Source: Polaribacter haliotis (GTDB lineage Bacteria; Bacteroidota; Bacteroidia; Flavobacteriales; Flavobacteriaceae). Taken from it: a stretch of 64,000 nt of DNA. Below the pieces are notes generated by a model. It had not been told where the DNA came from. It made no database searches and saw nothing but the letters and a program-made list of their open reading frames with translations. Both the position numbers and the translations under genes were made by a program. Of this stretch, positions 683 through 21,237 are shown piece by piece. The stretch lies in NCBI RefSeq assembly GCF_014784055.1, contig NZ_CP061813.1, positions 831,501 through 895,500 on the forward strand. Reading direction: 5' to 3'. Each line of letters starts with the position of its first letter. Within the stretch, counting starts at the first letter, position 1.

Positions 683-1612
683 TTACAACTTATTTTTAAG
701 TGTTTCTATTAATTTTTTTGTTCTTATTTTTCTTCCCTTTCCATTCAAGTGATAACTACTGTCGTAAAACAAATCTGCATCATATAAATAGTCTGTTGGG
801 TTTCCAACAAATGTAAGATTGGTTTCCTTTCTTAACATATTTATATCTAGTAGAAAGCGATTATCAAATTGAGATTTTTCTAAAGGCGGAAAAGTTATAA
901 TTAATTGAACGCCTTTCTGCTTACAAATAAGATTCATTTTTTGTAAAAAAGTCACAAATTTGCTACTAATTTCTTTACTTTTTAATTTTTGATATCTATT
1001 AATTTCTTCAGCTTTTATTTTTGAATCATTTATAGAGACCAAACTAATATTATCTCCTAAATAATTATAAGATTCTCTTTTATATTGTGTTGGAGCTGCT
1101 TCTTTTTTCTTTAATAAACTTATATAAAATTTTGTTGACAATCGAATTGCTTTCTTAAAAAAAGATTTCTTTTGAAATCTTGTAAAATCTTTAAAAATAG
1201 CTGGGGAATAAAAAAGCGTAGTATAAAGAAAATCGTCTCCATTTTCTTTTCCATAATAATATTCATATTCAGGAATATAAAGTATAACATCTCCTTTTGT
1301 TAGATAGTTTTTCGTTAAGTTTAAATGATATTTACTTCCTAAACTCATTGCCAAACTTGTGTTTATTACTGGCTTTAAAAACGTTTCTCCTAAAAGTTTA
1401 CTATTTATACTATAAGAAGAACTGGATCCACCAGCAATAATAATTTTAGATGTATTTTTTAAAGAGTCTAGTCTATTATATTTATTTATAATTGCTGCAG
1501 GATAATCAGTTTTATCATTATAATTGGCAAAGAATGCTCCTCCAACATACACAGTAATAAGTAGTAACAAAACACTTATTTTAATAGCAATATATTTCAA
1601 AAATTTATTCAT
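683..1612 (-). CDS. Membrane-anchored SGNH-like protein, probable polysaccharide O-acyltransferase partner (copy 1)
   Basis: This 309-residue protein has an N-terminal membrane segment (about residues 8-29) and then an extracytoplasmic domain. A GGSSSS motif at about residues 61-66, after a hydrophobic strand, resembles the nucleophile block of SGNH hydrolases. Near the C-terminus FYDSSYHLNGKG supplies a plausible Asp284/His288 pair. The layout resembles AlgJ/AlgX/DltD-type partners that accept an acyl group passed by an MBOAT membrane protein. It overlaps the next upstream gene by 8 bases and is close in architecture to the copy at 4821-5741 (GGSN block and FDSPYH ending). Substrate and acyl group are unknown. 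The role is inferred from motif and from the MBOAT gene in the same operon. Confidence 0.6.
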   Translation of the reverse strand: MNKFLKYIAIKISVLLLLITVYVGGAFFANYNDKTDYPAAIINKYNRLDSLKNTSKIIIAGGSSSSYSINSKLLGETFLKPVINTSLAMSLGSKYHLNLTKNYLTKGDVILYIPEYEYYYGKENGDDFLYTTLFYSPAIFKDFTRFQKKSFFKKAIRLSTKFYISLLKKKEAAPTQYKRESYNYLGDNISLVSINDSKIKAEEINRYQKLKSKEISSKFVTFLQKMNLICKQKGVQLIITFPPLEKSQFDNRFLLDINMLRKETNLTFVGNPTDYLYDADLFYDSSYHLNGKGRKIRTKKLIETLKNKL

Positions 1613-2522
1613 TAAAAGATAAATTATTTATGTCGTTTGCTAATTTTTTAGAAAAAAATTTTCCAGATGCTTTGTATAAATGATTGCCGTCTATAAAGGT
1701 GTAATTATTTGAATCTTCTTTATAATTTAAATACAATAAATTATTAAATCTAGTGTTAATAATTGAATCGAAATTTTCACATAATTCATTTTCAACTGCC
1801 AAAATTTCTTTATTAACTGGTATACGAACTAAAATTACTCGACCATGTTTTTTTAATAATTGTATAGTTTTATCTAACCAAAATATTCTTTTATCTGAAA
1901 TTTCATATATTTTTCCATTTTCTTTATATACTTCTATCTTAGATAATGTTCGTTTTCTTAAATCGTTTTTCTCCATATTTATATTTACTTCTAACCAGCC
2001 ATTTTTATGAAGCAGTAAAGTCGAATCTCTATTAAACTTATTAATTAATAGGTTAAACATAGAGTTTTTATAAGAATTAACTAAATAGTCGTAATTAGGA
2101 TTCATATTAAAAAAAGTAAGCTTAGAAAGTTCTTTTTTACTTTCGATATCGTAATTTAAATTTGTTCTTTGGGAAATTGACCAAGGATCTACAGATAAAA
2201 TAAATAGCCCATTAAAACTATTCTCATCTAATTTAGATTTTATGGCTTTATAATATGTTTCGCCATAAGGACTATGAAGAATTGTAAAGGCAAAATTATA
2301 AATCGAATGATTTAATATATTTTTATCTATTACTGAATTTAAAATTTGCGGTCTTATCCCTTGAGCGGCTCTTGAAGTTCCTAAAATCAAGGATTTTTGT
2401 TTTGGACTCGTAAATCTTAAATAAAAAGGGTCTGTTGTACCATCTGCTAAAAAACCTAATAAAATATAAGTTATAAGAATAGTAGTTACAAGAAATGTTA
2501 TTTTAATTATAAAGTTTTTCAT
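1605..2522 (-). CDS. Membrane-anchored SGNH-like protein (copy 2)
   Basis: The 305-residue product starts with a membrane segment (about residues 5-25) and is otherwise predicted to be extracytoplasmic. LGTSRAAQG at residues 47-55 occupies the place of the SGNH nucleophile block, with Ser50 the candidate nucleophile. FIDGNHLY near the C-terminus gives the classical Asp-x-x-His pair. It overlaps its upstream neighbour by 4 bases and its downstream neighbour by 8, so the three SGNH-like genes at 683-3403 look translationally coupled. It differs in sequence from the other three copies, which suggests different acceptors rather than simple duplication. Deacetylase or esterase activity is an alternative to acyltransfer. 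Confidence 0.58.
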   Translation of the reverse strand: MKNFIIKITFLVTTILITYILLGFLADGTTDPFYLRFTSPKQKSLILGTSRAAQGIRPQILNSVIDKNILNHSIYNFAFTILHSPYGETYYKAIKSKLDENSFNGLFILSVDPWSISQRTNLNYDIESKKELSKLTFFNMNPNYDYLVNSYKNSMFNLLINKFNRDSTLLLHKNGWLEVNINMEKNDLRKRTLSKIEVYKENGKIYEISDKRIFWLDKTIQLLKKHGRVILVRIPVNKEILAVENELCENFDSIINTRFNNLLYLNYKEDSNNYTFIDGNHLYKASGKFFSKKLANDINNLSFNE

Positions 2523-3403
2523 TCAATAATTAAATTAATAATTGAATCTACTTTTTTCGAAAAAACAGTAGATCCATTTTCATTCAAATGATCTACATTC
2601 TTAAAGTATTTATCTTCAGTAATTTTAAACATCATCCCATCTATGATTTTACTTTTTTTTAGATCTATTTTTTTTAATGTTGATTTTATAAATTTATCAT
2701 ATATTTCATTGGAAAATTTATAGAAATCTGGATGATATGGGGGTAATAATATAAACAATTTAATATTTTTTTCTGAACATATTTTAATTATTTCTTCTAA
2801 AAAAATTATGTTTTTTTCAATAATAGACTTTCTGGATATTTTATTCATAGGGTTACCAATTCTTTTACCTATAATATTTAAGTCGTATTTATAACTTTCT
2901 TTACTTGCTCTCCAGCCAAATAGAGAAACATTTACTTTCCTTACAATTGCATTTTCTACAAGTTCTTTAAATGAATCATTCAACAATAAAGAATTTGCAA
3001 GTATTCCTTGACTATAATTATCTAATTCATAAAAATGATAATACAATCTTTTTTCGTCGTTTGTAATTTCTTCTGTAAAAAGAGTATAGCTAGAAATGGG
3101 CAAAATTATTGCTTTTATATTATTAAAATTAGAGATATTCTTCTTCAATATAAAATAATCTGTTTCTAATTTTCTACTTTTATTAGCCACATTTATAGCC
3201 TTTTTCTTAAAATAAAAAGGGTTTAGTCCAAAAAACGTATGAGAATTTCCTAATATTAAAACTTCAACATTTTTTTCTTTCAACAAGTTATTTTTAAACG
3301 ACATTACATTTATATTCTTTGGGAACACAAAGAGAACTAAAATTCCAAAAAATATTGAAATTATAGCTACGTAATAAAATAACTTTATTAAAAATAGCTT
3401 CAT
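2519..3403 (-). CDS. Membrane-anchored SGNH-like protein (copy 3)
   Basis: This is a 294-residue protein with an N-terminal membrane segment (about residues 7-27). LGNSHTFFG (residues 51-59) matches the GxS block of SGNH/GDSL-type enzymes with Ser54 as candidate nucleophile. NVDHLNENG near the C-terminus contains the probable Asp/His catalytic pair. It lies 3 bases downstream of the MBOAT gene, which is the best argument that it is the direct partner of that transporter-like acyltransferase. Known systems of this type (AlgI with AlgJ/AlgX, DltB with DltD) pair one MBOAT protein with one or two such partners. Function is inferred from motifs and gene order. Confidence 0.6.
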   Translation of the reverse strand: MKLFLIKLFYYVAIISIFFGILVLFVFPKNINVMSFKNNLLKEKNVEVLILGNSHTFFGLNPFYFKKKAINVANKSRKLETDYFILKKNISNFNNIKAIILPISSYTLFTEEITNDEKRLYYHFYELDNYSQGILANSLLLNDSFKELVENAIVRKVNVSLFGWRASKESYKYDLNIIGKRIGNPMNKISRKSIIEKNIIFLEEIIKICSEKNIKLFILLPPYHPDFYKFSNEIYDKFIKSTLKKIDLKKSKIIDGMMFKITEDKYFKNVDHLNENGSTVFSKKVDSIINLIIE

Positions 3404-3406
3404 AAA

Positions 3407-4831
3407 TTAAAACTGAAAATAGATAAATGAAGATTTTTCGTCTACAGAAGCATAATATAAAATCATAAATGCAAACAACATATAAAATACTATTCTGTAT
3501 TTTTTGTCTAAAACAATGGCATATTCTTGCCTTCTTGAAAACCATTCCATAATTACAAATAGCAATAAAAATGGTAGCACTTTTTTATGTCGAATTATAT
3601 CTGGAATAAAATTATTAAAATTAAATATATTCTGAATGTACTCAACAGCTTGTGTTAATGAAGTTGCTCTAAAAAATATCCACGCAAAAGTGGTAATTGT
3701 AAAAGTTCCTAAAATTTGAAGAATTTCTTTAAAACTCGGTAAAATAGAAGTTTCAGCAACTTCATCTAAATTTGTTCTATTTTTACCTCCTATTAATAAT
3801 GGTAAGAAAAATAATGCGTTTAAACCTCCCCAAATAATAAATGTCCAATTGGCTCCATGCCAAAAACCACTCACTAAAAAGATAATAAAAACGTTTCTTA
3901 TTTTAATTTTTAAACTTCCTCTAGAACCTCCTAATGGAATGTATAAATAATCTCTAAACCAAGTACTTAAAGAAATATGCCATCTTCTCCAAAACTCTGC
4001 AATGTCTCTAGAAAAATACGGATAATTAAAGTTTCTCATTAATTTGAAACCAAACAATCGCGATGTTCCAATAGCAATATCTGAATATCCAGAAAAATCG
4101 CAATAAATTTGAAATGCAAAATAAATGGCTCCCATACAAAGTGCTAAGCCAGATTCATCTTGGTAATTTTCGAAAATTCTGTTGACTAAAACTGCACAGG
4201 AATCTGCAATCACCACTTTTTTTACCAATCCCCATAAAATTAATTTCATTCCAGAAACAGCAAAATCATAATTGAATTCTCTATTTTTATAAAATTGAGG
4301 TAATAAATTGGTAGCTCTTTCAATTGGTCCTGCCACTAATTGAGGGAAAAATGCTACGAAAGAAGCAAATGCGATGAAGTTTTTAGTAGGTTCTAATTTT
4401 TCTCTATATACATCTATGGTGTAACTTAAAGTTTGAAATGTATAAAACGAGATTCCAACTGGTAAAATAATATTTAACGAGCTTGCATGCATAGTTACTC
4501 CAATAGATTCCCAAGCCTGAATCCAATTATCTATAAAAAAATTATAATATTTAAAAAAACCTAATAAGCCCAAATTAAAAACGAGACTCACAATTAGTAA
4601 TCGTTTTCTTTGCTTCTTTTCAGTTGTGTTTTTTAGTTGTAAACCTAATGAATAATCTACAACTGTACTTAGTATTATGAGTGATAAAAAACGCCAATCC
4701 CACCAACCATAAAAAACATAACTAGCAATTAAAATTAAAACATTTTGTATGCTTAACTTCTTAAAAACAAACCAATACAATAGAAATACTATTGGTAGAA
4801 AGATTAAAAATTCTATGGAATTAAATAACAT
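3407..4831 (-). CDS. MBOAT-family membrane-bound O-acyltransferase (AlgI/DltB-like)
   Basis: The 474-residue protein is hydrophobic along most of its length, with many membrane helices. It shows the MBOAT signature blocks: an FWRRWHIS segment, then FRDYLYIPLGGSRG, and the SGFWHGANW block with the conserved active-site His at about residue 325. The length equals that of AlgI-type proteins (about 460-520 residues). Family members take an acyl group from a cytoplasmic donor, usually acetyl-CoA, and pass it across the membrane to a polysaccharide or to a partner. The gene overlaps the upstream SGNH-like gene by 11 bases and is followed after 3 bases by another, so acyl relay through these partners is likely. 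The acceptor is probably the O-polysaccharide made by this cluster. Confidence 0.88.
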   Translation of the reverse strand: MLFNSIEFLIFLPIVFLLYWFVFKKLSIQNVLILIASYVFYGWWDWRFLSLIILSTVVDYSLGLQLKNTTEKKQRKRLLIVSLVFNLGLLGFFKYYNFFIDNWIQAWESIGVTMHASSLNIILPVGISFYTFQTLSYTIDVYREKLEPTKNFIAFASFVAFFPQLVAGPIERATNLLPQFYKNREFNYDFAVSGMKLILWGLVKKVVIADSCAVLVNRIFENYQDESGLALCMGAIYFAFQIYCDFSGYSDIAIGTSRLFGFKLMRNFNYPYFSRDIAEFWRRWHISLSTWFRDYLYIPLGGSRGSLKIKIRNVFIIFLVSGFWHGANWTFIIWGGLNALFFLPLLIGGKNRTNLDEVAETSILPSFKEILQILGTFTITTFAWIFFRATSLTQAVEYIQNIFNFNNFIPDIIRHKKVLPFLLLFVIMEWFSRRQEYAIVLDKKYRIVFYMLFAFMILYYASVDEKSSFIYFQF

Positions 4832-5741
4832 TTTTTAAAGTTTTTATTAAATTTCTTGTATAAATTTCTCTTGTTTTTTTCAAGGCATGATATGGGCTAT
4901 CAAAAAACATTGTGTCTTCGAAAATATTTTCTTTTATATGACCAATAAATTTCGAATTAGTATTCGTTAAACTATCCAAAGTAGAAATTGCATTTTTTGT
5001 GATAAATTTTTTAGAATACACTGGAAAAGTAATGTAAAAACGAATCTCTTTTTTTTTCAAAATTAAGTCTAATGAATTAATATTATCTATGAAAGCAGTC
5101 GAAATTTTAACTTTTTCGATAATAGGATATGATCTTACTTTTTCCAGTTTATTTTTTTTATCTAAATGATATGTTAAATCTCCATATTTATTAAAATCTC
5201 TTCTCTTTATTTCTGATGGAATAGATTCGTCTTTTATAAAGCTAAAAACAGGATTAAGCATCGATTTAAATCCGCTTCTAAAAAAATTTAGTGTATTTAC
5301 AGAACCCAAACTCGATATTAATTTCGGTTCTGTTAAAAATGCATTGTTTATAAAATTCGCTCCAAATTGGCCTTTTCCAGAATAATAATTAAATTCTGGT
5401 ATATAAATTATAAAATCTCCTTTTCTTGCATGATTTTTTAAAAAATTTAATTGGAATTGGTATCCTGTATTGAAAACAAAACCACTATTTATAACTTTTA
5501 TTTTCAACTCTTTTTCTAATAATTGAGAATCGATTGAGAAAATAGTGTTGGATCCTCCCATTATAATTAATCTATTCTCGATATTTTTATCAGTAATATT
5601 TTTGTATTTATCAATTACAAAACCAGAAAAAATATTTGAATATTTTGTTTTTAAAAGATAGTTGGAAACTTTAAATAATAGAGCGTAAATTGTAATTACA
5701 ACTAATAAATATTTAGAAAACTTAATAATAAAATATTTCAT
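4821..5741 (-). CDS. Membrane-anchored SGNH-like protein (copy 4), upstream of the MBOAT gene
   Basis: This 306-residue protein has an N-terminal membrane segment (about residues 9-27). MGGSNTIFSID at residues 61-71 is an SGNH-type nucleophile block with Ser64, and FFDSPYHALK near the end provides Asp and His. It resembles copy 1 (683-1612) more than the other two: both have a GGS block, a YIPE(F/Y) motif in the middle and a DSxYH ending. It begins on the base after the neuA stop and overlaps the MBOAT start by 11 bases. Placement between neuA and the MBOAT gene suggests acylation of a nonulosonic-acid-containing glycan, which is inference. Confidence 0.6.
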   Translation of the reverse strand: MKYFIIKFSKYLLVVITIYALLFKVSNYLLKTKYSNIFSGFVIDKYKNITDKNIENRLIIMGGSNTIFSIDSQLLEKELKIKVINSGFVFNTGYQFQLNFLKNHARKGDFIIYIPEFNYYSGKGQFGANFINNAFLTEPKLISSLGSVNTLNFFRSGFKSMLNPVFSFIKDESIPSEIKRRDFNKYGDLTYHLDKKNKLEKVRSYPIIEKVKISTAFIDNINSLDLILKKKEIRFYITFPVYSKKFITKNAISTLDSLTNTNSKFIGHIKENIFEDTMFFDSPYHALKKTREIYTRNLIKTLKNVI

Positions 5742-6434
5742 TTATTTATTATTTACTAATTCTTCTGCTTTTTCCCAATCTTTTAAAGTATCTATATTTA
5801 CATACCATTTTTTTGGAGATTCTATATAAGAAATGCTATTCCCGAACAAAGATTGTTGTTCTAATAAAACACTTGTTTTGGTAATATAAATACTTCCATC
5901 TCTATGAAATGCTTTGGGTAAATCTTGTCTTCGAGTAATAATATCGTTTTCGCCAGTCGCTATTTGTAAAGTTTTATCTTCTTTTTCTTCAAAAACCCAA
6001 TGAGGATTGTATTCATGAGGAACTTCTTGTACAGAAAATAAAGAATCTGTATCTTTTTCTATAAATGTTTGTATTGCTTTATCTAAAAACGCAACAGTTC
6101 TAAAAGGACTTGTTGTTTGCAATAAACAAACTGCATCGAAATACATATTTTGTTTTTTATAAAACTCTAAAGCATGTAAAATAACTGGCAAAGTTGGTGA
6201 AGCGTCCAGCGCTAAATCAGCTGGTCTTTTAAAGGGAACTTCAATTCCTAAAGATTCTGCTATAGCTATTATTTCTTCGTCTTCTGAGCTTAAAATTAAC
6301 GTATTTATAAATTCACTTTTTAAAGCAACTTCAGCTGTGTATGCTATTAATGGCTTTCCTCCTAATAATTTAATATTTTTACGCGGAACTCCTTTAGAGC
6401 CTCCTCTTGCAGGTATAATTCCTAATATTTTCAT
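5742..6434 (-). CDS. neuA: CMP-nonulosonate (sialic-acid-type) cytidylyltransferase
   Basis: The 230-residue protein begins with the nucleotidyltransferase motif IPARGGSKGVPRKN and continues with GGKPLIAYT, the signature of CMP-N-acylneuraminate synthetases. The length fits the NeuA/LegF/PseF group (about 225-235 residues). It activates a nonulosonic acid with CTP for use by a glycosyltransferase in the cytoplasm. It overlaps the neuC stop by one base and follows neuB and neuC, which supply the free acid. The sequence alone does not show whether the sugar is N-acetylneuraminic or legionaminic acid. No 4,6-dehydratase or aminotransferase set typical of legionaminate or pseudaminate routes is next to it, which mildly favours a neuraminate-type product. 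Confidence 0.9.
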   Translation of the reverse strand: MKILGIIPARGGSKGVPRKNIKLLGGKPLIAYTAEVALKSEFINTLILSSEDEEIIAIAESLGIEVPFKRPADLALDASPTLPVILHALEFYKKQNMYFDAVCLLQTTSPFRTVAFLDKAIQTFIEKDTDSLFSVQEVPHEYNPHWVFEEKEDKTLQIATGENDIITRRQDLPKAFHRDGSIYITKTSVLLEQQSLFGNSISYIESPKKWYVNIDTLKDWEKAEELVNNK

Positions 6435-7594
6435 TAATACGTAATTGTTTTGTGAAAACTTAAAGGCGTTTTTGCTAAAATATCTGCAATTCTATCTCCA
6501 GATTTTCCATCTCCATAAATAGTTGAAGAAGTGATATTTTTGGATGAAATTCTGTTTTCTATAGCTTTTATAATTTCATTTTTATCGTAACTAGAGTTTA
6601 GTACGTTATTTCCTCTTTGCCTTCTATTTTGACGACTTCCTATATTTACAACTGGAACTCCTAAATAAGAACATTCTCGAATACCAGCACTAGAGTTACC
6701 AATTAAACATTTACTATTTATTAATAATTTTAAAAAATCCTTTGGTTCCATATTCTTGAAAAAATGGATATTTTCTGGCTTTTTAATTTCTCTAAAAGTT
6801 CTAATTCCGTTTGATGTTCCATCTGAACCAGCATCTACATTTGGCCAAAACCAAAAAGTAGGAATGCCTAATTCGTGAACCGCTTGCAATGTTTGTTCAA
6901 CATCTTTTCTTGCAGATGCATATTCTGTAGTTACTGGATGTTGCATCACCACAATATAACCTTCTTCTTTCCAATTAACATCTGCTCCAACTCCACCATA
7001 TTTTTCAATAGGATCGAAATCTAAATTCGGATTTTGCTTAATTTCTGAAGCTAAATCTATAGATGGACAACCCGTATTAAAAACCGTTGCTGGATTTTCG
7101 CCCATTTTTAAAACCCTTTCTTTTGCATCTTGGGAAGCTACCAAATGTAAGTCTGCTAATTTCGTATTTGCATGACGCACTTTCTCGTCGATATTTCCTG
7201 TAACTTCTCCTCCTTGAATGTGTATTAACGGAATATTTTGATAAGAAGCAGCAATACTCGTTGCAATTGTTTCAAAACGATCTGCAATGGTTACCACTGC
7301 ATCTGGTTGCAATCTGTAAAAAACATTCGCTAATTCCATAACGCCTAAACCTGTCGTTTTTGCCATAGAAGTTGGGTTTTCTCCCTCTAAAACCATAAAC
7401 ACTTTTTCGTCGATTTTAAAACCGTCGTTTTCTATAAAATCAACCGCATTTCCATATCTACCTAACAAAGCAGAACCTGCAATTACCAATTGTAACTCTA
7501 ATTCTGGGTGATTTTTTATGGCTGTTAAAGCTGTTTTTATCCTACTGTAAGATGGTCTTGCAGTTACAACTACACATATTTTTTTTATCGACAT
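6434..7594 (-). CDS. neuC: UDP-N-acetylglucosamine 2-epimerase (hydrolysing), NeuC type
   Basis: The 386-residue length is typical for the hydrolysing UDP-HexNAc 2-epimerase family. Visible family blocks include TARPSYSR at the start, ADRFET around residue 106, HIQGGE near residue 126, TGCPSIDLA and a C-terminal IGNSSAGIRE. The hydrolysing type releases a free ManNAc-type sugar plus UDP, the first committed step of sialic acid synthesis, as opposed to the WecB type that keeps UDP. Its neighbours neuB (one base upstream) and neuA (one-base overlap) fix the assignment to a nonulosonate pathway. A LegG-type role on a diamino sugar nucleotide is the main alternative. Confidence 0.9.
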   Translation of the reverse strand: MSIKKICVVVTARPSYSRIKTALTAIKNHPELELQLVIAGSALLGRYGNAVDFIENDGFKIDEKVFMVLEGENPTSMAKTTGLGVMELANVFYRLQPDAVVTIADRFETIATSIAASYQNIPLIHIQGGEVTGNIDEKVRHANTKLADLHLVASQDAKERVLKMGENPATVFNTGCPSIDLASEIKQNPNLDFDPIEKYGGVGADVNWKEEGYIVVMQHPVTTEYASARKDVEQTLQAVHELGIPTFWFWPNVDAGSDGTSNGIRTFREIKKPENIHFFKNMEPKDFLKLLINSKCLIGNSSAGIRECSYLGVPVVNIGSRQNRRQRGNNVLNSSYDKNEIIKAIENRISSKNITSSTIYGDGKSGDRIADILAKTPLSFHKTITY

Positions 7595-7595
7595 T

Positions 7596-8597
7596 TTATT
7601 CAGTTATATCTTCATAATTCAAAAAATCCCATTGGTTTAAATCTTTATTCAATTTTTTACCAATAATATTTTCGTATTCACTTGCCAAGATACCAAAACC
7701 TTTAGGTTTTTTAGTTTCTAAGTCAGAAAAAGTAATTACACTTCCACTTTTTAAATCTTTATTTACTGCTAACGATTTTTCGAAAATGGATTTTAATTCC
7801 TTAAAGTTTGAGTTGTCTTTTTTATCAATCGGGTTTTGTAAAGCGACTTCAATATTTCTTACAGCAGCAACTAAATTTGTGGTTTCTTCCATTGTTAAAG
7901 ATGCTTTCGCATCTGGACCAAACATTTCTTTATTAAAAACGACATGAAATTCTAAAATTTCGGCACCTAAAGTTGTGGCTGCAATACAAGCTTCTATGGA
8001 AGAAGAATGGTCTGAAAAACCAACTGAAACATTATATCTTTTTTTTAATTCTTGAATTACATTTAACCCAAACTGTACTGGTTTTGTAGGATATGCAGTT
8101 GTACATTGTAATATTGAATACTCTACATTTCTCGATTTTAAAAAGGCAATTGTTTTATCTAATTCATCAAAAGAACTCATTCCAGATGATATAATTACAG
8201 GTTTTCCAGTCTGTGCAATTTTTTCTAATAACACAAAATTATTCACTTCTCCAGAACCAACTTTGTAACGTTTCACATCTACTTTTTCTAACAAATCTAC
8301 TGCAGCATTACTAAATGGTGAACTCATAAATTCCAAACCAACATCATCACAATGTTTTTTTAATCCTTTCCATTGTTCTAAAGTGAATTCCATTCGTTTC
8401 CAATAGTACATTCTTGTGGCATCTTGTTTGGAAAATTTCACACGAAAAGGTTCGTGAATACTGCTTTCTGCTTCAGCAATATGTGTTTGAAATTTAATAG
8501 CATTACACCCTGTTTTCGCAACAGCATCTATATACGCATGTGCCATTCCTAAACTTCCATCATGTGCTTGTGCAATTTCTGCAATTATAAATGTCAT
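7596..8597 (-). CDS. neuB: N-acetylneuraminate-type synthase (NeuB family) with SAF domain
   Basis: The 333-residue protein has an N-terminal TIM-barrel NeuB domain (FIIAEIAQAHDGS at the start, KFQTH near residue 40, KVGSGE, ISSGMSS, VGFSDHS) and a C-terminal antifreeze-like SAF domain (about residues 272-330, with SLAVNKDLKSG and KKPKGFGI). This is the standard two-domain layout. The enzyme condenses phosphoenolpyruvate with a ManNAc-type sugar to form a nine-carbon acid. It overlaps the upstream glycosyltransferase by 4 bases and precedes neuC by one base, forming a compact neuB-neuC-neuA set. Whether it prefers the neuraminate or legionaminate precursor cannot be settled by eye. Confidence 0.92.
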   Translation of the reverse strand: MTFIIAEIAQAHDGSLGMAHAYIDAVAKTGCNAIKFQTHIAEAESSIHEPFRVKFSKQDATRMYYWKRMEFTLEQWKGLKKHCDDVGLEFMSSPFSNAAVDLLEKVDVKRYKVGSGEVNNFVLLEKIAQTGKPVIISSGMSSFDELDKTIAFLKSRNVEYSILQCTTAYPTKPVQFGLNVIQELKKRYNVSVGFSDHSSSIEACIAATTLGAEILEFHVVFNKEMFGPDAKASLTMEETTNLVAAVRNIEVALQNPIDKKDNSNFKELKSIFEKSLAVNKDLKSGSVITFSDLETKKPKGFGILASEYENIIGKKLNKDLNQWDFLNYEDITE

Positions 8598-14107: not shown

Positions 14108-15022
14108 TTATTTTAAAATATGAAGCCTAAATCTATTTTTTATAAATCTTCTTAAAAGTTTTAAAAAAGGGATTAATTTAAAATTTTTAAAATACAGTTT
14201 AAATATAAAGTTCCAATTATTATTTCTAATTTCAGATTTACTCCTTAGTAATGTCTCATGTATTAGCAAAAATTCTAATTTTTGAGATTTATTTAATAAA
14301 TAAAATTTTTCTGAAATAAAATTTTTCTGAAACATTAAAGTAGCTTCTTTTTTTAAATCTAAATTATCATTCTTTCCAGAAATACTTAAGTTAGAAATTC
14401 TTATATAACATGAAGCATTGTTAATAGAAAATATTGGTTTTCCGTCTGAAAAATCTAACCAAGCTTGATCATCACTATGCCATGCTAGAGGGTAATCTAT
14501 AAATTTAAATTTCTCATATGATTTTCTTGAAAAAATATGTTCAGATAAAGAACTACCAGTTAAACCTTTTATTCTTCTAAAAAAAGAGTCTATTGAATTT
14601 TCCCAAATTGGTTGGCAACTTTTATTCTCTATTAAATTTGATTGTTCCAATACATCTTTGGTTGAAAATCTAATAACATTAGTTTTATCTTTAAACTCCT
14701 TAAAAGAATTATACCAACACTCTACTACATTAGATTCTAAATAATCATCGTCTCCAAGAATCATAATCCATTCTTCATCTCCGATTAACTCTATACATCT
14801 ATTCCACTGTTTTACTAAAGAAATTCCACCTAAGTTTTCATCAAATCTCTTGTATGAATAATTAAGTTTATATTTATACTCGGCTAATAATGTTTGTGGG
14901 TTTTCTAAACTAGCATCATCACCAATATAAACTTTAAATTGTTTATTTGTTTGGTTTGCTAAAGATTTTATTGTTTGTTCAAAAAAAGTTAGCTTATAAT
15001 AAGGAATTACAATTGCCAACAT
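14108..15022 (-). CDS. Glycosyltransferase family 2 protein (GT-A)
   Basis: The 304-residue protein opens with AIVIPYYKLTFFEQTIKSL and QFKVYIGDDAS, the GT2 nucleotide-binding strand and first acidic motif. MILGDDDYLE (about residues 88-97) holds the DxD-type metal-binding motif. No membrane span is visible, so it probably works at the inner face of the membrane on a lipid-linked acceptor. Its start overlaps the stop of the upstream 502-residue gene by one base, which indicates translational coupling. Confidence 0.88.
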   Translation of the reverse strand: MLAIVIPYYKLTFFEQTIKSLANQTNKQFKVYIGDDASLENPQTLLAEYKYKLNYSYKRFDENLGGISLVKQWNRCIELIGDEEWIMILGDDDYLESNVVECWYNSFKEFKDKTNVIRFSTKDVLEQSNLIENKSCQPIWENSIDSFFRRIKGLTGSSLSEHIFSRKSYEKFKFIDYPLAWHSDDQAWLDFSDGKPIFSINNASCYIRISNLSISGKNDNLDLKKEATLMFQKNFISEKFYLLNKSQKLEFLLIHETLLRSKSEIRNNNWNFIFKLYFKNFKLIPFLKLLRRFIKNRFRLHILK

Positions 15023-16530
15023 TACATATTTGAGTTTTTAAGTTTATTCATTTTGGTTTGTACTTTTAGTATAAAAATATGTGAAATAACATTCCAAAAT
15101 AAAAAATAATTAAAAAAAGATGTATTTTTTAATAATAATTTAAATGAAAAAATATTTTTATTATGCATATAATTCATCATAAATATTTCATTTTTGGTTT
15201 TATACGATAAGTCTTCTTTAAACTTACTATTAACATAATTGGTATTGTAAATATTTTGTAATTTCAAATTCCAAGCATCAATTAAATTATTGTTTTTTAA
15301 ATATTTATTTTGAAAAAATATTATTTTTTCTCTATATTTATTTTCATTTTTAATTAAAGTTAGTAATTTTTTTTTCCACTCAATAAAATCTTTTGGATAT
15401 TTAAATTCATCATTACTATCTGAAAAAAATCTAATACAATCTTCAGGACTATACATTAAATGAACTGGAGTTTGTTTTTTCATAGCTTCTAAAGTAGATG
15501 TAAAAGAACCTAAAGGATAGCTTTCTAAATAAATGTCTGCTATTAATTCATATTCTTTAATATTTGTAAGTACTCCTAAATATATTATCTGAGGATGTTT
15601 TATAACAAAGACATCATCTTCAGTAACTCCAATTATAAAAATTATAATTTTTTTATCACTATTTAATATATCAACAATATCTAAAAAAAAATTCTTATGA
15701 TTGTTTGGTTTAAATTTATATGCGGATGCTATAGTAAGTAAAATTATAGAATCATCTGAAAGTCCTAAACTTTTTTTAACACTCTCCTTTTTTTGTCTAT
15801 TTTTTTCTTCTAATTTAGAGATAGGAATAGGAAGATAAAATTGTTTTATATCAATTCCCCTTCTTACTGCGTCTAACTCTATGTTACTATTTCTAATTTG
15901 TGCAATAACGTTTGCTACTGAAACACCAACCCAAAATGTATGATCTGCATGGTTTAATAAAATAACCTTGCTTTTATAGTTTGAAAAAGCTAAATTAGGT
16001 ATTATATCATATTGATGAATATGTAAAACTATTCTATCATAATTTACGCTTAAACTTCTTAGCTGAACTGCTTTTTCTACTATATTTCCATTTAAATAAT
16101 AATTAGAGTTGCTTTCTAGGTTATAATGTATTAGAACTTCTTTAAAACTTTTATAATTCATTGAAGTTGATACTATGGAATGTGAATTTTCTTTATCATT
16201 TAAAATCCAATTTTTCATTAATTTTGTATGCCCTCCAGTTAAGTAAATTTCTGAGACTACATGTAAAACATTAAATTGACCTTCATTACTTTCTAATTTA
16301 AAATTATTGAATTTATTAGTAATATTAAAATTTAGTTTTGAAGAAACCTTACTTAAAAGTTGCTCCAACTTCCAGGAAGCGTAGTAACCTGTTTGATTAA
16401 AAGTAGCAAAATAGGCAATTTGTCTAATAAATTTTAAAGCAAAATTATATTGTCCTTTTTCAAAAAAAATATTTGCTAAATTTAAACAATTGTCAAAAAA
16501 AAAAGAATTTCTCTTAATTAAATCAAGCAT
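15022..16530 (-). CDS. Putative GT-B glycosyltransferase with extra N-terminal region
   Basis: The product is 502 residues, longer than its neighbours. The first 75 residues form helices with alternating aromatic positions ([19 protein letters not shown] and following), which looks like one or two TPR-like hairpins. A GT-B-like core follows: [17 protein letters not shown] near residue 96, [12 protein letters not shown] near 190, [12 protein letters not shown] and [33 protein letters not shown] in the donor domain. The last 80 residues are basic and helical. It overlaps aminotransferase and GT2 genes by 8 bases and 1 base. A TPR plus glycosyltransferase reminiscent of surface-glycan polymerases is possible, but I do not recognise a named family. 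Confidence 0.62.
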
Positions 16531-17623
16531 AATCGTTCAAAATTTTAATAATTTCTTCTATCTCTTTTTGAGTCTGTACAGCACTAATTGGTAAGCTTAA
16601 AACTTCATTATGAATTTTCTCTGTAATTGGTAATTGTAAATGTGAAAATTCCTTGTAGGCTAATTGTTTATGGGGTGGAATAGGGTAATGTATTAGTGTT
16701 TGAATATTTTTATCTAATAAATACTTCTGCAATTTATCTCTTTGTTTTGTTCTTATCACAAATAAATGAAATACGTGATTCTCAATTTTATTGAATTTAG
16801 GAAGTATTAATTTATTGTTGTCAATTTTTTCTAAATAAAGTTTAGCTAATTTTTGTCTTTTTTTTATTTCTTGATTAATATATTTTAACTTCACTCTTAA
16901 TACAGCCGCTTGCATCTCATCTAACCTACTATTAAAAGATTTATATTTATGAATATATTTTTCTGTTGAACCATAATTTCTTAAATAAGTGATGCATTTT
17001 GCTAACTCCTGATTATTAGTTGTAATAGCTCCTGCATCACCAAGAGCTCCAAGGTTTTTACCTGGATAAAAACTAAATCCTGCAGCATCTCCTAAATTTC
17101 CAGCTTTTTTACCTTTGTAAGAAGCGCCATGTGATTGTGCTGCATCTTCTATTACAAGTAAATTATATTTTTTAGCAACTTCTATTATAGAATCCATATC
17201 ACAAACCTGTCCATATAAATGTACAGGAAGTATTGCCTTTGTTATATTTGTTATTTTTTCTTTAATTTTAACTACATCTATATTATAAGAATCTAAAGTA
17301 GGCTCGACAAAAACTGGTTTCAACCTATTTTCTGTAATCGCTAATATAGTTGCAATATATGTGTTTGCTGGGACTAATATTTCATCTCCATCTTCTAACA
17401 GACCTAATTCTTTATAAGCTCTCAATATTAATATTAATGCATCTAAACCATTTCCTACTCCAATGCAATATTCAACACCTGAAAACTTTGCAAACTCCTT
17501 CTCAAACAACTTTAATTCATTACCTAAAATATACCAACCAGAATCCAAAACTCTTTTAATTGCGAGTTCAATCTCAGGTTTATATTTTTCATTAAGCCTT
17601 TTTAAATCTAAAAATGGAATCAA
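16523..17623 (-). CDS. DegT/DnrJ/EryC1/StrS sugar aminotransferase (FdtB/QdtB-like)
   Basis: This 366-residue PLP enzyme of the sugar-aminotransferase family begins [11 protein letters not shown] and shows [29 protein letters not shown] and the lysine block [16 protein letters not shown] with the Schiff-base lysine. The early motifs resemble FdtB/QdtB enzymes, which aminate the 3-keto group of dTDP-3-keto-6-deoxyhexoses. An FdtA-like isomerase gene three places upstream supports that reading, since FdtA/QdtA makes the 3-keto substrate. It overlaps the MaoC-type gene by 4 bases. Product would be dTDP-Fuc3N or dTDP-Qui3N; which epimer cannot be read from sequence here. Confidence 0.87.
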
Positions 17624-18030
17624 AATAATATAGTTTTATCTACTTTCATATACGCCTCTCCTTCAAGTACCAATTCATTATTTTGATTAAAACAATTTGT
17701 AATTAAAATAATTCTTGCTTTTTTTATATCAACTTCCTTCACAGTCACCTTAGCAGTAATTGTTTCATCGTAATACACTGGCTTTATAAAGCTCATTGTT
17801 TGTTTTAAATAAATGCTTCCATATCCAGGAAGTTTAGTGCCCAAAACAGCACTAATGTAGGAGCCAACAAGAAACCCATGCACTATCCTTTTTTTAAATC
17901 TTGATGAAGAAGCATATTCTTTATCTAAATGAATAGGATTGATATCCAAACTAATTTCACTAAACAATTGTATATCCTTTTCAGTTATAGTTTTCGATAT
18001 TGAAGCTGTATCTCCGATGGTTATTTTCAT
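17620..18030 (-). CDS. MaoC-like (R)-specific enoyl-CoA/ACP hydratase
   Basis: The 136-residue single hotdog-domain protein has the hydratase-2 motif [10 protein letters not shown], with Asp29 and His34 as catalytic residues in the pattern D-x-N-P-x-H, followed by [15 protein letters not shown] and the [16 protein letters not shown] strand. This matches PhaJ-type enzymes that add water to trans-2-enoyl thioesters to give (R)-3-hydroxyacyl thioesters. Its placement between the aminotransferase (4-base overlap) and the LpxA-like acyltransferase (3-base gap) in a glycan cluster suggests it supplies a 3-hydroxyacyl group for N-acylation of the amino sugar. The catalytic residues are directly visible; the role in the pathway is inference. 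Confidence 0.85.
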
Positions 18031-18033
18031 AAT

Positions 18034-18711
18034 TTAATAAAGAGTTTTTTTAGATTTAATATGATAATTATTAAATCTATCTACTATGTCTTTAATTATT
18101 TTTTCCTTAGGTTCAATATCATTTAATACATAATCCTTAATCGTATCTAAATATTCTAAAAAACCAAATTTTTTTATTGCGTATACATTTACACTAATAG
18201 GATTTCTTGGAATATGCCTAGAAAAGGGTTTTACATTTTTCATAACAAAAGCACTTGCTGAAACCATTGAATACTGACCAATTACATTATATTGATTTAT
18301 ACCTGCTCCAATGCCTATATTAGCTCCTTTCATAATTCTTGTTATACCCGCAAGAACACTCATTGGTGTTATAACCACATCATCTTCTAAAATAGCGTCA
18401 TGAGGTATATGCACACTTTGCATTAAATAAATATTATTACCAAGCTCTGTAATATCTGTATAACAAGGTTTTTGTATTGCTGAAAATTCTCTTATAATAT
18501 TATTATCTCCAATTTTTATAAGTGCATTAGAAGAATCATATCTTGGGTTTTTAGTATCTTGTCCTGGAGAACCAATTACAACATGAGAGCCAATTATATT
18601 ATTATTACCAATTAAAGTTGGGCCATCTATAACTGTATATGCTCCGATTTTATTATTATCACCTAATGTTACATTAGTCGCAATAATAGCTGTAGGATGA
18701 ATATGATTCAT
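18034..18711 (-). CDS. LpxA-like left-handed beta-helix N-acyltransferase
   Basis: The 225-residue protein is built from hexapeptide repeats (for example AIIATNVTLGDNNKIGAY). It retains the LpxA-type active-site block SVHIPHDAILEDD with His101 and His104, and the RHIPRNP segment near residue 170. LpxA itself uses (R)-3-hydroxyacyl-ACP, and it is about 260 residues with a longer C-terminal helical domain, so this is a shorter relative. In this context it would N-acylate the 3-amino-3,6-dideoxy sugar made by the neighbouring FdtA and FdtB-like enzymes, using the product of the adjacent hydratase. FdtC-type N-acetyltransferases are the alternative, but they lack this His block pattern. It begins on the base just after its upstream neighbour ends. 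Confidence 0.78.
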   Translation of the reverse strand: MNHIHPTAIIATNVTLGDNNKIGAYTVIDGPTLIGNNNIIGSHVVIGSPGQDTKNPRYDSSNALIKIGDNNIIREFSAIQKPCYTDITELGNNIYLMQSVHIPHDAILEDDVVITPMSVLAGITRIMKGANIGIGAGINQYNVIGQYSMVSASAFVMKNVKPFSRHIPRNPISVNVYAIKKFGFLEYLDTIKDYVLNDIEPKEKIIKDIVDRFNNYHIKSKKTLY

Positions 18712-19113
18712 TTAATGATTTTTGAATTTTTGAAAATTTCTTATGTAATCGCTTTTAATATAAAATTCTGAGGCCAAACATAAAAGAACCGCATTATGTG
18801 AAAAAGAGATTTCTCTCCAATATAATTCTGGAATATATAAACCTTTAGAGGGGGTATTTAAAATATAAACTTGCTCAAACCCTAACTTGTCAGTTAGTTT
18901 GAACTCTATAACACCTGAAACAGCAACAATTATTTGCTGCAAATTTTTATGAGCATGATGTCCCCTTTGTACATTATTTGGTGTAAAATACGTCCAATAA
19001 ACACGTTTAATATCAAATGGCACTTGTTTCTGTGCTTCTGCAACAGAAATATAACCCAATTCACTTGAACCAATAGAATCAAACTCTATGATATATGGTT
19101 TTTTATTTTTCAT
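18712..19113 (-). CDS. fdtA: FdtA/QdtA-like 3,4-ketoisomerase (WxcM-type cupin)
   Basis: The 133-residue cupin carries LGYISVAEAQKQVPFDIKRVY near the N-terminus, RGHHAHKNLQQ with the active-site histidines, and LYIPELYWREISFS, all typical of dTDP-4-oxo-6-deoxyhexose 3,4-ketoisomerases. I chose the ATG at 19113 rather than 19134. The shorter form starts MKNKKPYIIEFD, as homologues do, and it overlaps wzt by only 11 bases instead of 32. The enzyme converts the 4-keto sugar to the 3-keto form for the DegT aminotransferase in the same operon. The rmlA and rmlB genes needed upstream in the pathway are not in this window. Confidence 0.82.
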   Translation of the reverse strand: MKNKKPYIIEFDSIGSSELGYISVAEAQKQVPFDIKRVYWTYFTPNNVQRGHHAHKNLQQIIVAVSGVIEFKLTDKLGFEQVYILNTPSKGLYIPELYWREISFSHNAVLLCLASEFYIKSDYIRNFQKFKNH

Positions 19114-20362
19114 AAAAATGTGATTTCCATTCAAAACCCTCGTACAAAATCCCTGGTTTTTTATTTGTATTCTTGCTCCCTAAGTTGTCTACTTCGAAAG
19201 ACACAACTTCTAATGCTTCTAAAAGCACGTATTTTTGATCCTTACCAAAAATTAAATTAATTGTAAAAAAACCAGAATTTAATAAATATGCTGGTATTTG
19301 AGTATTTAATTGATAAGTCCCAACTTTTGAATCATTATTAATTAAAACTAAAGCTCCATTATGATAAATAATAACTTCGTCTTGATTTACAATTTCAACT
19401 GTACAATCTAAATTTATATTTCCTGAAAAATTTTTAAATTTTATTAAAATATCAATTCCAGAATTAATTGACAATATACTACCTTCTATTGGAGTTACAG
19501 TAATATTTTCTAATGCAATATGTTTATTCTTAATTTTTTTTATGCTCTTTTCATAACTTAATTTTTTAGATAATTCTTTATAAAAATTTAAAGAATTGTC
19601 AACAGATCCTTCAAATTTTAATTGACCATTATCCAAAACAATCGCTTTATTGCAAAGACTTCTTACAGCTGCCATATTATGACTCACAAACAAAACAGTT
19701 CTACCATCTGTTTTAGAAATATCTTGCATTTTACCAATTGCTTTCTTTTGAAACTCAATATCTCCAACAGCCAAAACTTCATCTACCACCAAAATATCTG
19801 GTTCTAAATGTGCGGCTACTGCAAAAGCCAAACGAACTTTCATTCCGCTAGAATACCTTTTTACTGGGGTATCTATATAACGTTCGCAACCAGAAAAAGA
19901 CACAATTTCATCTAATTTAGAATTTATTTCTTTTTTGGTCATTCCAAGAATAGCTCCATTTAAAAAAATGTTTTCTTTCCCTGTCATTTCTGGGTGAAAA
20001 CCTGTACCAACTTCTAATAAAGAGGCGATTCTTCCTTTCGATTTTATAAAACCCTCTGTAGGACCTGTAACTTTAGAAAGTATTTTTAATAATGTCGATT
20101 TTCCTGCACCATTTTTTCCTATAATTCCTAAAACCTCTCCTCTTTTTACTTCAAAATTAATGTCTTTTAAAGCCCAAACATATTCCGATTTTCCTTTTGA
20201 TGACCTATCATTAGATTCTCCAATTTTTAAATACGGATCTTCTTTACCTCTAATTTTTGCTAAAAAACGATTAAAATCGTGACTAATAGTACCTGTACCA
20301 ATAGTTCCTAAACGATATTGTTTGGATAGGTTTTCGACCTTTAAAATAATATCTTCTTTCAT
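19103..20362 (-). CDS. wzt: O-antigen ABC transporter ATP-binding protein with C-terminal glycan-binding domain (Wzt)
   Basis: The 419-residue protein contains the ABC ATPase with Walker A GKNGAGKST (residues 82-90), signature YSSGMKVRLAF (170-180), Walker B ILVVDEV (190-196) and the switch histidine in FVSHNM. A 30-residue insertion after the first strand is usual for Wzt and TagH. Residues about 275-405 form the extra beta-rich Wzt C-terminal domain, which in known systems recognises the modified non-reducing end of the O-polysaccharide and so sets chain length and export specificity. Its presence implies export of a finished, capped polymer. It follows wzm after 2 bases. Confidence 0.93.
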   Translation of the reverse strand: MKEDIILKVENLSKQYRLGTIGTGTISHDFNRFLAKIRGKEDPYLKIGESNDRSSKGKSEYVWALKDINFEVKRGEVLGIIGKNGAGKSTLLKILSKVTGPTEGFIKSKGRIASLLEVGTGFHPEMTGKENIFLNGAILGMTKKEINSKLDEIVSFSGCERYIDTPVKRYSSGMKVRLAFAVAAHLEPDILVVDEVLAVGDIEFQKKAIGKMQDISKTDGRTVLFVSHNMAAVRSLCNKAIVLDNGQLKFEGSVDNSLNFYKELSKKLSYEKSIKKIKNKHIALENITVTPIEGSILSINSGIDILIKFKNFSGNINLDCTVEIVNQDEVIIYHNGALVLINNDSKVGTYQLNTQIPAYLLNSGFFTINLIFGKDQKYVLLEALEVVSFEVDNLGSKNTNKKPGILYEGFEWKSHFYEK

Positions 20363-20364
20363 AT

Positions 20365-21237
20365 CTAAATCGTATCTATAAAAGTTTTTTCGGTTTTATT
20401 AAAAATCAATAATCCTAAGAAAAATATTACAATGGTAAATATAGCTGTGTATGTAATTCCAAAAACAGAATAATTTCCATCATTTAAAAGCATATATCTA
20501 CCAAGTTCTATAAGATGAGCTATTGGGTTAAAATCTACCACCCAAGAATAATCTGTACCTTCTTCAACATTTATTAACTTTTCTCGCATTAAATCTAAAG
20601 GGTACATTACTGCAGATAAATACATTAGCAATTGTACTCCAAAAGCAACTAAAAAAGTTAAATCTCTATATTTTGTTACCATAGAAGAAATAATCATTCC
20701 CAAACCTAAACCCATCATTCCCATTGCAATAATTAATAATGGAAAAAATAAAATATACATATTTGGCATAATTTCATATCCTGTTAAAGCATAATAAATA
20801 TAAAAACAAATAAATATAAAAATCTGAATTCCAAATTTTAACAAATTGGAAACTACAATAGACATTGGCATTATTACTCTTGGAAAATATACTTTACCGA
20901 AAATGGCTTCATTTTTTTTAAAAGTGTCTGAAGTTGCTGTTAAGCATTCTTTAAAATAATTCCAAATGGTAACTCCTGCTAAATTGAATAAGAAAGGTGG
21001 AACATCTCCTGTGGAAATTCCAGCAATATTATTAAAAACTAACGTAAATATTACAGAAGTAAATAAAGGCTGAATTAGATACCACAAAGGTCCTAAAATT
21101 GTTTGTTTGTATAGAGTAACCACATCTCTTTTTACAAAAAGAATTAGTAAATCTCTATATTGCCAAACTTCTTTAAGATTTAAGTCGAATAAATTGTTTT
21201 TGGGGGATATTTCAAAAAGCCATTTATCTCGCTCCAT
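20365..21237 (-). CDS. wzm: O-antigen ABC transporter permease (Wzm)
   Basis: The 290-residue ABC-2-type permease has about six membrane helices. Visible features include the amphipathic N-terminus WQYRDLLILFVKRDVVTLYKQT, the conserved LGPLWYLIQPL, and FNPIAHLIELGRY before the last helices. It pairs with the Wzt ATPase two bases downstream to move a lipid-linked polysaccharide to the periplasm. It is the first gene of the long polysaccharide operon, with a consensus Bacteroidota -7 box 23 bases before its ATG. The gene is intact and of normal family length. Confidence 0.93.
   Translation of the reverse strand: MERDKWLFEISPKNNLFDLNLKEVWQYRDLLILFVKRDVVTLYKQTILGPLWYLIQPLFTSVIFTLVFNNIAGISTGDVPPFLFNLAGVTIWNYFKECLTATSDTFKKNEAIFGKVYFPRVIMPMSIVVSNLLKFGIQIFIFICFYIYYALTGYEIMPNMYILFFPLLIIAMGMMGLGLGMIISSMVTKYRDLTFLVAFGVQLLMYLSAVMYPLDLMREKLINVEEGTDYSWVVDFNPIAHLIELGRYMLLNDGNYSVFGITYTAIFTIVIFFLGLLIFNKTEKTFIDTI

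Follow-up and report, generated by a model that had tools for sequence, protein, structure and literature searches.

Introduction

The closest described relatives of the locus reported here are the FdtA/FdtB/FdhC and QdtA/QdtB/QdhC modules of Escherichia coli O103, Acinetobacter Sv23 and Hafnia, in which a ketoisomerase, a C3-aminotransferase and an N-acyltransferase are encoded together within an O-antigen or capsule cluster. In the available parts of the reports, FdhC or QdhC is the transferase for the (R)-3-hydroxybutyryl group of Fuc3N or Qui3N in E. coli O103, Hafnia and Acinetobacter (PMC4869667, PMC3726653). A 3-hydroxybutyryl amino sugar of this class also occurs in Proteus O86, according to the accessible text of PMC11728032, and the A. 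baumannii fdtACDB and qdtACDB modules are tabled as makers of N-acetyl sugars in the portion of PMC9676051 at hand. The gene sets of the Fdt and Qdt modules, as excerpted from these sources, name no enzyme for the acyl donor, whereas an operon of Polaribacter haliotis, which combines the same three activities and for which we propose the same product class, also holds a MaoC hydratase gene. This operon lies in a 64,000-nucleotide stretch of contig NZ_CP061813.1 (hereafter the window).

Four intact genes occupy positions 16523-19113 of the minus strand and are transcribed in the order FdtA/QdtA-type ketoisomerase (FdtA), LpxA-like left-handed β-helix acyltransferase (LbH), MaoC/PhaJ-type hydratase (MaoC) and DegT/DnrJ/EryC1/StrS aminotransferase (DegT), with the coordinates, order and motifs that an earlier reading of the sequence (the original prediction) had given. 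We lean toward the view that the operon makes a dTDP-3-acylamido-3,6-dideoxyhexose for an ABC-exported polysaccharide, the acyl group being a short (R)-3-hydroxyacyl and most probably (R)-3-hydroxybutyryl. In this pathway, RmlA and RmlB, encoded elsewhere in the genome, would provide dTDP-4-keto-6-deoxyglucose, FdtA would shift the keto group to C3 and DegT would put an amine on C3. LbH would then move the acyl group onto that amine, and the donor would come from MaoC through hydration of a short trans-2-enoyl thioester (crotonyl-CoA). The enzyme families, the catalytic residues, the operon layout and the presence of rmlA and rmlB are read from the sequence; the identity of the acyl group, its thioester carrier (CoA or acyl carrier protein, ACP), the epimer and the partnership between MaoC and LbH are what we infer. 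The module is real, coherent and partly conserved.

A predicted dTDP-linked 3-amino-3,6-dideoxyhexose

The FdtA frame (18712-19113, minus strand) opens with ATG, an upstream TTG at 19134 being the alternative start taken in the automatic open reading frame listing, and the protein matches PF05523 with 136 bits (8.8e-40) against a cut-off of 23, as expected for a dTDP-4-keto-6-deoxyhexose 3,4-ketoisomerase. Its best match among solved structures is 5tpu, and QdtA (4o9e) and 7n67 are also recovered, which are ketoisomerases of the Fuc3N/Qui3N kind. Both histidines of the RGxHxH motif, which we take to be the catalytic pair of FdtA and QdtA, are present (RGHHAHK); in alignments, the FdtA entries 2pae, 2pak and 2pam deviate from 2pa7 at these positions.

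DegT (16523-17623, minus strand) starts with a TTG that lines up with residue 1 of 7n63 and matches PF01041 with 361.7 bits (6e-108). Its closest solved structures are 7n63 (455.8 bits) and 5u1z (WlaRG, 449.9 bits), with QdtB (3frk, 396 bits) in fifth place behind 7b0d. WlaRG is given as a C3-aminotransferase in the available part of PMC7725333, and the score against the PseC model (202 bits) is far under those of the C3-aminotransferases. The rmlA and rmlB genes lie outside the window, side by side at G000:C1:2344231-2346082, and both score above their cut-offs. Because FdtA keeps both histidines, DegT, predicted to aminate C3 of a 3-keto sugar, is nearest to C3-aminotransferases and rmlA and rmlB are present in the genome, dTDP-3-amino-3,6-dideoxyhexose is a firm sequence-based prediction for the sugar product. 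The epimer would be Fuc3N or Qui3N: two positions that presumably bear on this choice (galacto versus gluco) have a mixed pattern in the window protein, with Leu at the place of QdtA Tyr17 (Arg in FdtA) and Arg at the place of QdtA Arg97 (His in FdtA).

Head-to-tail FdtA pairs are common, both in LbH loci (L033-L039, L043, L051, L053) and in other FdtA loci (L072, L073, L075, L076, L078, L082, L084, L085, L089, L093, L095, L096, L099). The first copy lacks the second histidine of RGxHxH in all 23 tandem sets (10/10 in LbH loci and 13/13 among 30 FdtA loci), Phe or Tyr replacing it in 22 and Lys in one, and the next copy has both. The pairing of an active with a degenerate ketoisomerase looks conserved and might reflect a hetero-oligomer. 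In the window, FdtA is present as one intact copy.

A separate LpxA-like family with a narrowed acyl pocket

LbH (18034-18711, minus strand) belongs to a separate family of 225-residue proteins and is the proposed N-acyltransferase for the 3-amino group. Pfam recognizes only its hexapeptide repeats, plus one LbH model below threshold, and the protein stays below the two LpxA thresholds of NCBIfam (132.4 bits where 226 are required, and 125 bits where 231.05 are required) as well as below that of the NeuD/PglB/VioB sugar acetyltransferases (71.1 of 160.8 bits). Its predicted model is a left-handed β-helix (predicted local distance difference test score 95.2) whose first structural neighbor is LpxA, followed by Pcryo_0615 (PDB 8e62). 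His101 and His104, which had been singled out as retained, indeed align with His122 and His125 of E. coli LpxA. An assignment as ordinary LpxA was rejected, since the protein falls below the LpxA cut-offs, has a narrowed pocket and coexists with a separate LpxA-like gene, a 262-amino-acid frame (G000:C1:770321-770863, 29% identical) that is a better LpxA candidate.

We mapped 27 family members (the window protein and those of the 26 other loci described below) onto E. coli LpxA, the numbering of which is used here. Asp74, Met118, His122, His125, Gly143 and Gln161 are conserved in 27/27 and Gln73 in 26/27; the catalytic Asp/His dyad is present throughout, and two LpxA side chains that make polar contacts with the acyl chain are invariant. 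At the position of His144, all 27 proteins carry a hydrophobic Ile, Leu or Met. The counterpart of this histidine in P. aeruginosa LpxA touches the sugar 6-OH (accessible part of PMC7072397), so the replacement fits a 6-deoxy sugar substrate. The pocket is narrowed at three positions: Gly155 is replaced by Met, Val, Ile or Leu (27/27), Asn137 by Pro (26/27) and Gly173, the length-setting residue of LpxA according to the available text of PMC6408518, by Met, Thr or Ala (27/27). These changes fit a short acyl chain, and the alignment as a whole fits a short-acyl transferase for a 6-deoxy-3-amino sugar.

A putative donor enzyme in the same operon

MaoC (17620-18030, minus strand; 136 residues) matches PF01575 with 78.3 bits (4.8e-22) against a cut-off of 27, and in a family-profile search its best solved matches are the (R)-specific enoyl-CoA hydratases 1iq6 (151 bits) and 5cpg (145 bits). 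The D-x-N-P-x-H motif, described as complete in the original prediction, reads DINPIH at residues 29-34 and recurs in all nine LbH-linked MaoC proteins (eight other loci plus the window). Ser60 and Leu63 align with the same residues of A. caviae PhaJ (1iq6), which presumably prefers short chains and whose short-chain pocket we take to be shaped by these two residues. The window protein is thus a putative hydratase converting a short enoyl-CoA into (R)-3-hydroxyacyl-CoA, with a predicted preference for linear C4-C6 enoyl thioesters.

Ser60 and Leu63 also bear on whether the same pathway could deliver another small hydroxyacyl group (for example 3-hydroxy-3-methylbutyryl, 3-hydroxypropionyl or 3-hydroxyhexanoyl). 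We give this a low probability, as the predicted preference for linear C4-C6 substrates argues against it, although the pocket residues vary inside the LbH family, so that acyl groups may differ by locus, and the Qui4N of a Shewanella polysaccharide bears 3-hydroxy-3-methylbutyryl or 3-hydroxybutyryl depending on the growth medium (PMC3210612, in the part consulted). It is very improbable that MaoC runs as a dehydratase and that the sugar bears an enoyl (crotonyl-type) amide: MaoC-type reactions are generally known to be reversible, but PhaJ-type enzymes usually hydrate, the excerpts of the literature consulted on these sugars contain no enoyl amide, and LpxA is specific for 3-hydroxy chains, Chlamydia excepted, in the available text of PMC6408518.

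MaoC accompanies the LbH family rather than FdtA in general

A profile scan of genome contigs with the family alignment yielded 26 LbH loci besides the window. They belong to Bacteroidota, Balneolota, Pseudomonadota and one Deltaproteobacterium, with single metagenome-assembled genomes labeled Acidobacteriota, Myxococcota and Bdellovibrionota, labels that can err for such assemblies. Two genomes (G235 and G862) duplicate the records of L041 and L039, respectively, and were counted once. At an E-value of 1e-45, the family is found in 1/166 genomes of the genus, 2/397 of the family, 2/395 of the phylum and 1/395 of the class, the window's genome being included each time and at most seven first-look candidates per genome being scored at the latter three levels. 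It had no match in the plasmids or viral contigs searched.

MaoC directly precedes LbH in eight of the 26 loci (L033, L035, L037, L039, L041, L043, L051, L053), all from Bacteroidota or Balneola, and a profile recheck returned the same eight and added none. The four genes are contiguous in L033, L035, L037, L041 and L043, the fourth of which comes from Lutibacter, a member of the Flavobacteriaceae like the window's host. The original prediction had proposed gene order in other genomes as a check of conservation: the gene set recurs in these five loci, all with MaoC before LbH and four with a second FdtA, but the window's own LbH-MaoC order was found at none of the 26.

In ten further loci (L034, L036, L038, L042, L046, L047, L049, L050, L055, L058), FdtA, DegT and LbH share a strand and MaoC is absent; L058 reads Wzm-Wzt-FdtA-LbH-DegT, with LbH and DegT one base apart. 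FdtA and DegT lie on the opposite strand, some kilobases from LbH, in one locus (L052). Three loci (L040, L044, L045) lack FdtA and instead unite LbH and DegT with a MocA-type dehydrogenase and a family 2 glycosyltransferase, an arrangement that we take to resemble the Gnn or Wlb routes to a 3-amino sugar. As the dehydrogenase replaces FdtA there and DegT is kept, the aminotransferase appears to be the constant partner of LbH. The stretches analyzed at four loci (L048, L054, L056, L057) contain neither FdtA nor DegT.

As a control, a phylum-wide search for FdtA located it at 73 places, spread over 56 of 247 genomes, from which 56 stretches were taken, one per FdtA place or tandem in 55 genomes (the window's genome being excluded), with flanks of up to about 8 kb. 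MaoC is a direct same-strand neighbor of FdtA in none of them; it occurs anywhere on the same strand in one (L108, 3.7 kb downstream) and on the opposite strand in one (L105). The LbH family is absent from all 56 (best profile score 68 bits). The contrast between 8/26 LbH loci and 0/56 FdtA loci indicates that the MaoC link goes with the LbH family and not with FdtA generally.

In the one control stretch with a same-strand MaoC domain (L108; 7597-15081, G669), which has no LbH, the tandem FdtA precedes genes for a short-chain dehydrogenase, a metallo-β-lactamase-fold protein, a KAS III-type synthase and a methyltransferase, together with a fusion of MaoC with a FabG-like reductase. This run may be a pathway, carried by the cluster itself, to a special acyl group of an amino sugar, and its acyl-making genes indicate that donor genes beside FdtA recur.

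Weighing hydroxyacyl against acetyl transfer

Two observations weigh against a hydroxyacyl product: 18 of the 26 LbH loci show no MaoC, and Pcryo_0615, which follows LpxA in the ranking of structural neighbors, bears a title naming it as the N-acetyltransferase of a diacetamido-2,3-dideoxy sugar, which places N-acetyl transfer within the reach of LpxA-like enzymes. Both would suit the main competing explanation, that LbH is a plain 3-N-acetyltransferase using acetyl-CoA to give Fuc3NAc or Qui3NAc, with MaoC present by chance or serving another reaction or residue. The narrowed acyl pocket would be equally in keeping with acetyl transfer, and Fuc3NAc and Qui3NAc are given as products of the similar A. 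baumannii modules in the consulted part of PMC9676051. Against it stand the adjacency of MaoC and LbH at eight other loci and the window, in two arrangements, set beside its absence from the control FdtA loci, and the counterparts of Met118 and His122 in all 27 mapped proteins. We therefore consider acetyl transfer unlikely, while ranking it first among the alternatives to (R)-3-hydroxyacyl transfer. The step from LpxA likeness to a 3-hydroxyacyl group was nevertheless put too strongly in the original prediction: its 3-amino-3,6-dideoxyhexose is well supported, and the acyl part is backed indirectly, by the association with MaoC and by the two invariant acyl-contact side chains.

The loci devoid of MaoC also suggest that LbH probably does not depend on a nearby hydratase. 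Fatty-acid synthesis normally passes through (R)-3-hydroxybutyryl-ACP, so MaoC may be a booster of donor supply and not an essential part, which fits its absence from most LbH loci. Should the LbH proteins without MaoC take a different acyl group, at least two types of donor would exist within the family. Among the neighbors in these 18 loci, 67 of 85 proteins were scanned for Pfam families; the 25 commonest of the 68 families found are glycosyltransferases, sugar-nucleotide enzymes, methyltransferases and similar, and two neighbor proteins match short-chain dehydrogenase models, so that some of these loci may still carry a donor gene of another kind.

When the 225 LbH positions were scanned for association with MaoC, positions 121, 120, 85, 118 and 123 ranked highest, four of which lie in the turn matching LpxA 139-144. 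Ala121 is present in 9/9 proteins with MaoC and 5/18 without, an uncorrected comparison with only three independent pairs that we treat as a lead only.

History of the pairing

On the LbH tree, the presence of MaoC changes five times, at least three of which are forced by well supported branches; this patchy pattern suggests that MaoC was gained, lost or moved several times. We also built a MaoC tree of 38 rows, comprising the nine LbH-linked proteins and 29 background MaoC proteins whose short flanks have no match to the window's other operon proteins. The LbH-linked proteins cluster on it, with three changes against a shuffled mean of 8.3 (0/500 shuffles as low), and a single origin is compatible with the data (p-AU 0.297, on few columns and a weakly resolved tree). 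Repeated independent recruitment of MaoC was dropped as an explanation once the 29 background proteins had replaced a mere four comparison rows. A dedicated MaoC lineage travelling with LbH is equally possible, and the differing gene order of the window implies at least one rearrangement.

Comparison with known enzymes and operons

FdhC is a GNAT enzyme with the corresponding fold, whereas the window LbH is modeled as a hexapeptide β-helix. The LbH N-acetyltransferases QdtC, WlbB and FdtD/WxcM share both the pathway step and the β-helix fold with it. LpxA is 21-29% identical to LbH in structural alignments, but LbH scores below the LpxA cut-offs, has a narrowed pocket and a replaced His144, and is encoded in a polysaccharide cluster; the L. 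interrogans LpxA (3hsq) presumably acylates a 3-amino sugar. Pcryo_0615 (27% identity), which we assume to act at C3, resembles LbH in being, by its title, a short LpxA-like β-helix protein for an amino-sugar nucleotide, with acetyl as its titled donor group. Anthrose and modified-viosamine operons encode an enoyl-CoA hydratase, or a 3-oxoacyl synthase and a reductase, together with an aminotransferase and an acyltransferase. Donor enzymes stand beside amino-sugar genes there as they do here, but those operons concern 4-amino sugars and other acyltransferase and hydratase families.

The product class is already known and a donor enzyme within the cluster is not unique; the new part is the LpxA-like transferase family with the donor enzyme beside it. 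We found no description of this transferase family or of its pairing with MaoC in the literature searched on MaoC in amino-sugar and O-antigen clusters, which covered few subscription journals, and nothing in it contradicts the earlier statement that the four-gene module is not a described unit. Tentatively, and with less confidence than for the window's own product, we propose that this LpxA-related branch consists of N-acyltransferases, spread over several phyla, that put short chains on nucleotide-linked 3-amino sugars of surface polysaccharides. In Bacteroidota and Balneolota, the branch would have been joined with related PhaJ-type hydratases within a single operon, in at least two arrangements, to form a self-supplied (R)-3-hydroxyacyl module. 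If so, a gene signature (a 225-residue LpxA-like enzyme by a 3-aminotransferase, with or without MaoC) would predict acylated 3-amino sugars in Bacteroidota surface polysaccharides, and polysaccharide decoration would employ a protein related to an essential enzyme of lipid A synthesis, the sugar itself not being new.

Genomic setting

The four genes directly follow wzm- and wzt-like genes of a polysaccharide ABC exporter, all on the minus strand: a Wzm-like permease (20365-21237) and a Wzt-like ATPase (19103-20362), each assigned by its best family match and scoring below the equivalog cut-offs. The next gene of the operon encodes a 502-residue protein without a Pfam match (15022-16530, minus strand), a presumed glycosyltransferase, and the genes after the run mostly match glycosyltransferase families. 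Wzt and FdtA overlap by 11 nucleotides, the FdtA stop codon abuts the LbH ATG (gap 0), LbH and MaoC are 3 nucleotides apart, MaoC and DegT overlap by 4 nucleotides, and DegT and the 502-residue gene by 8. Genes that overlap or lie at most 3 nucleotides apart indicate a polycistronic layout; promoter-like and terminator-like sites at the operon are no more numerous than expected by chance. The label of O-antigen cluster comes from the adjacent wzm, wzt and glycosyltransferase genes, the polymer being predicted from the genes alone.

Elsewhere in the window, positions 5742-8597 encode a PseF-like cytidylyltransferase and a NeuB/PseI-like synthase, both below cut-off, and a NeuC-type epimerase above it, so a nonulosonic acid may be part of the same polysaccharide. 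Positions 683-5741 encode a DltB-like MBOAT protein (below cut-off) among four proteins of about 300 residues without Pfam match, which may together form a system for surface acylation that has several partner proteins. A 2447-residue protein that looks secreted is encoded at 32901-40244; judged by eye, it has leucine-rich-type repeats and ends in what appears to be a sorting domain. Finally, the gene at 10932-11957 matches PF24793 (8.9e-40), the N-terminal domain of glucosamine inositolphosphorylceramide transferase 1, a family name unexpected for a bacterial polysaccharide cluster.

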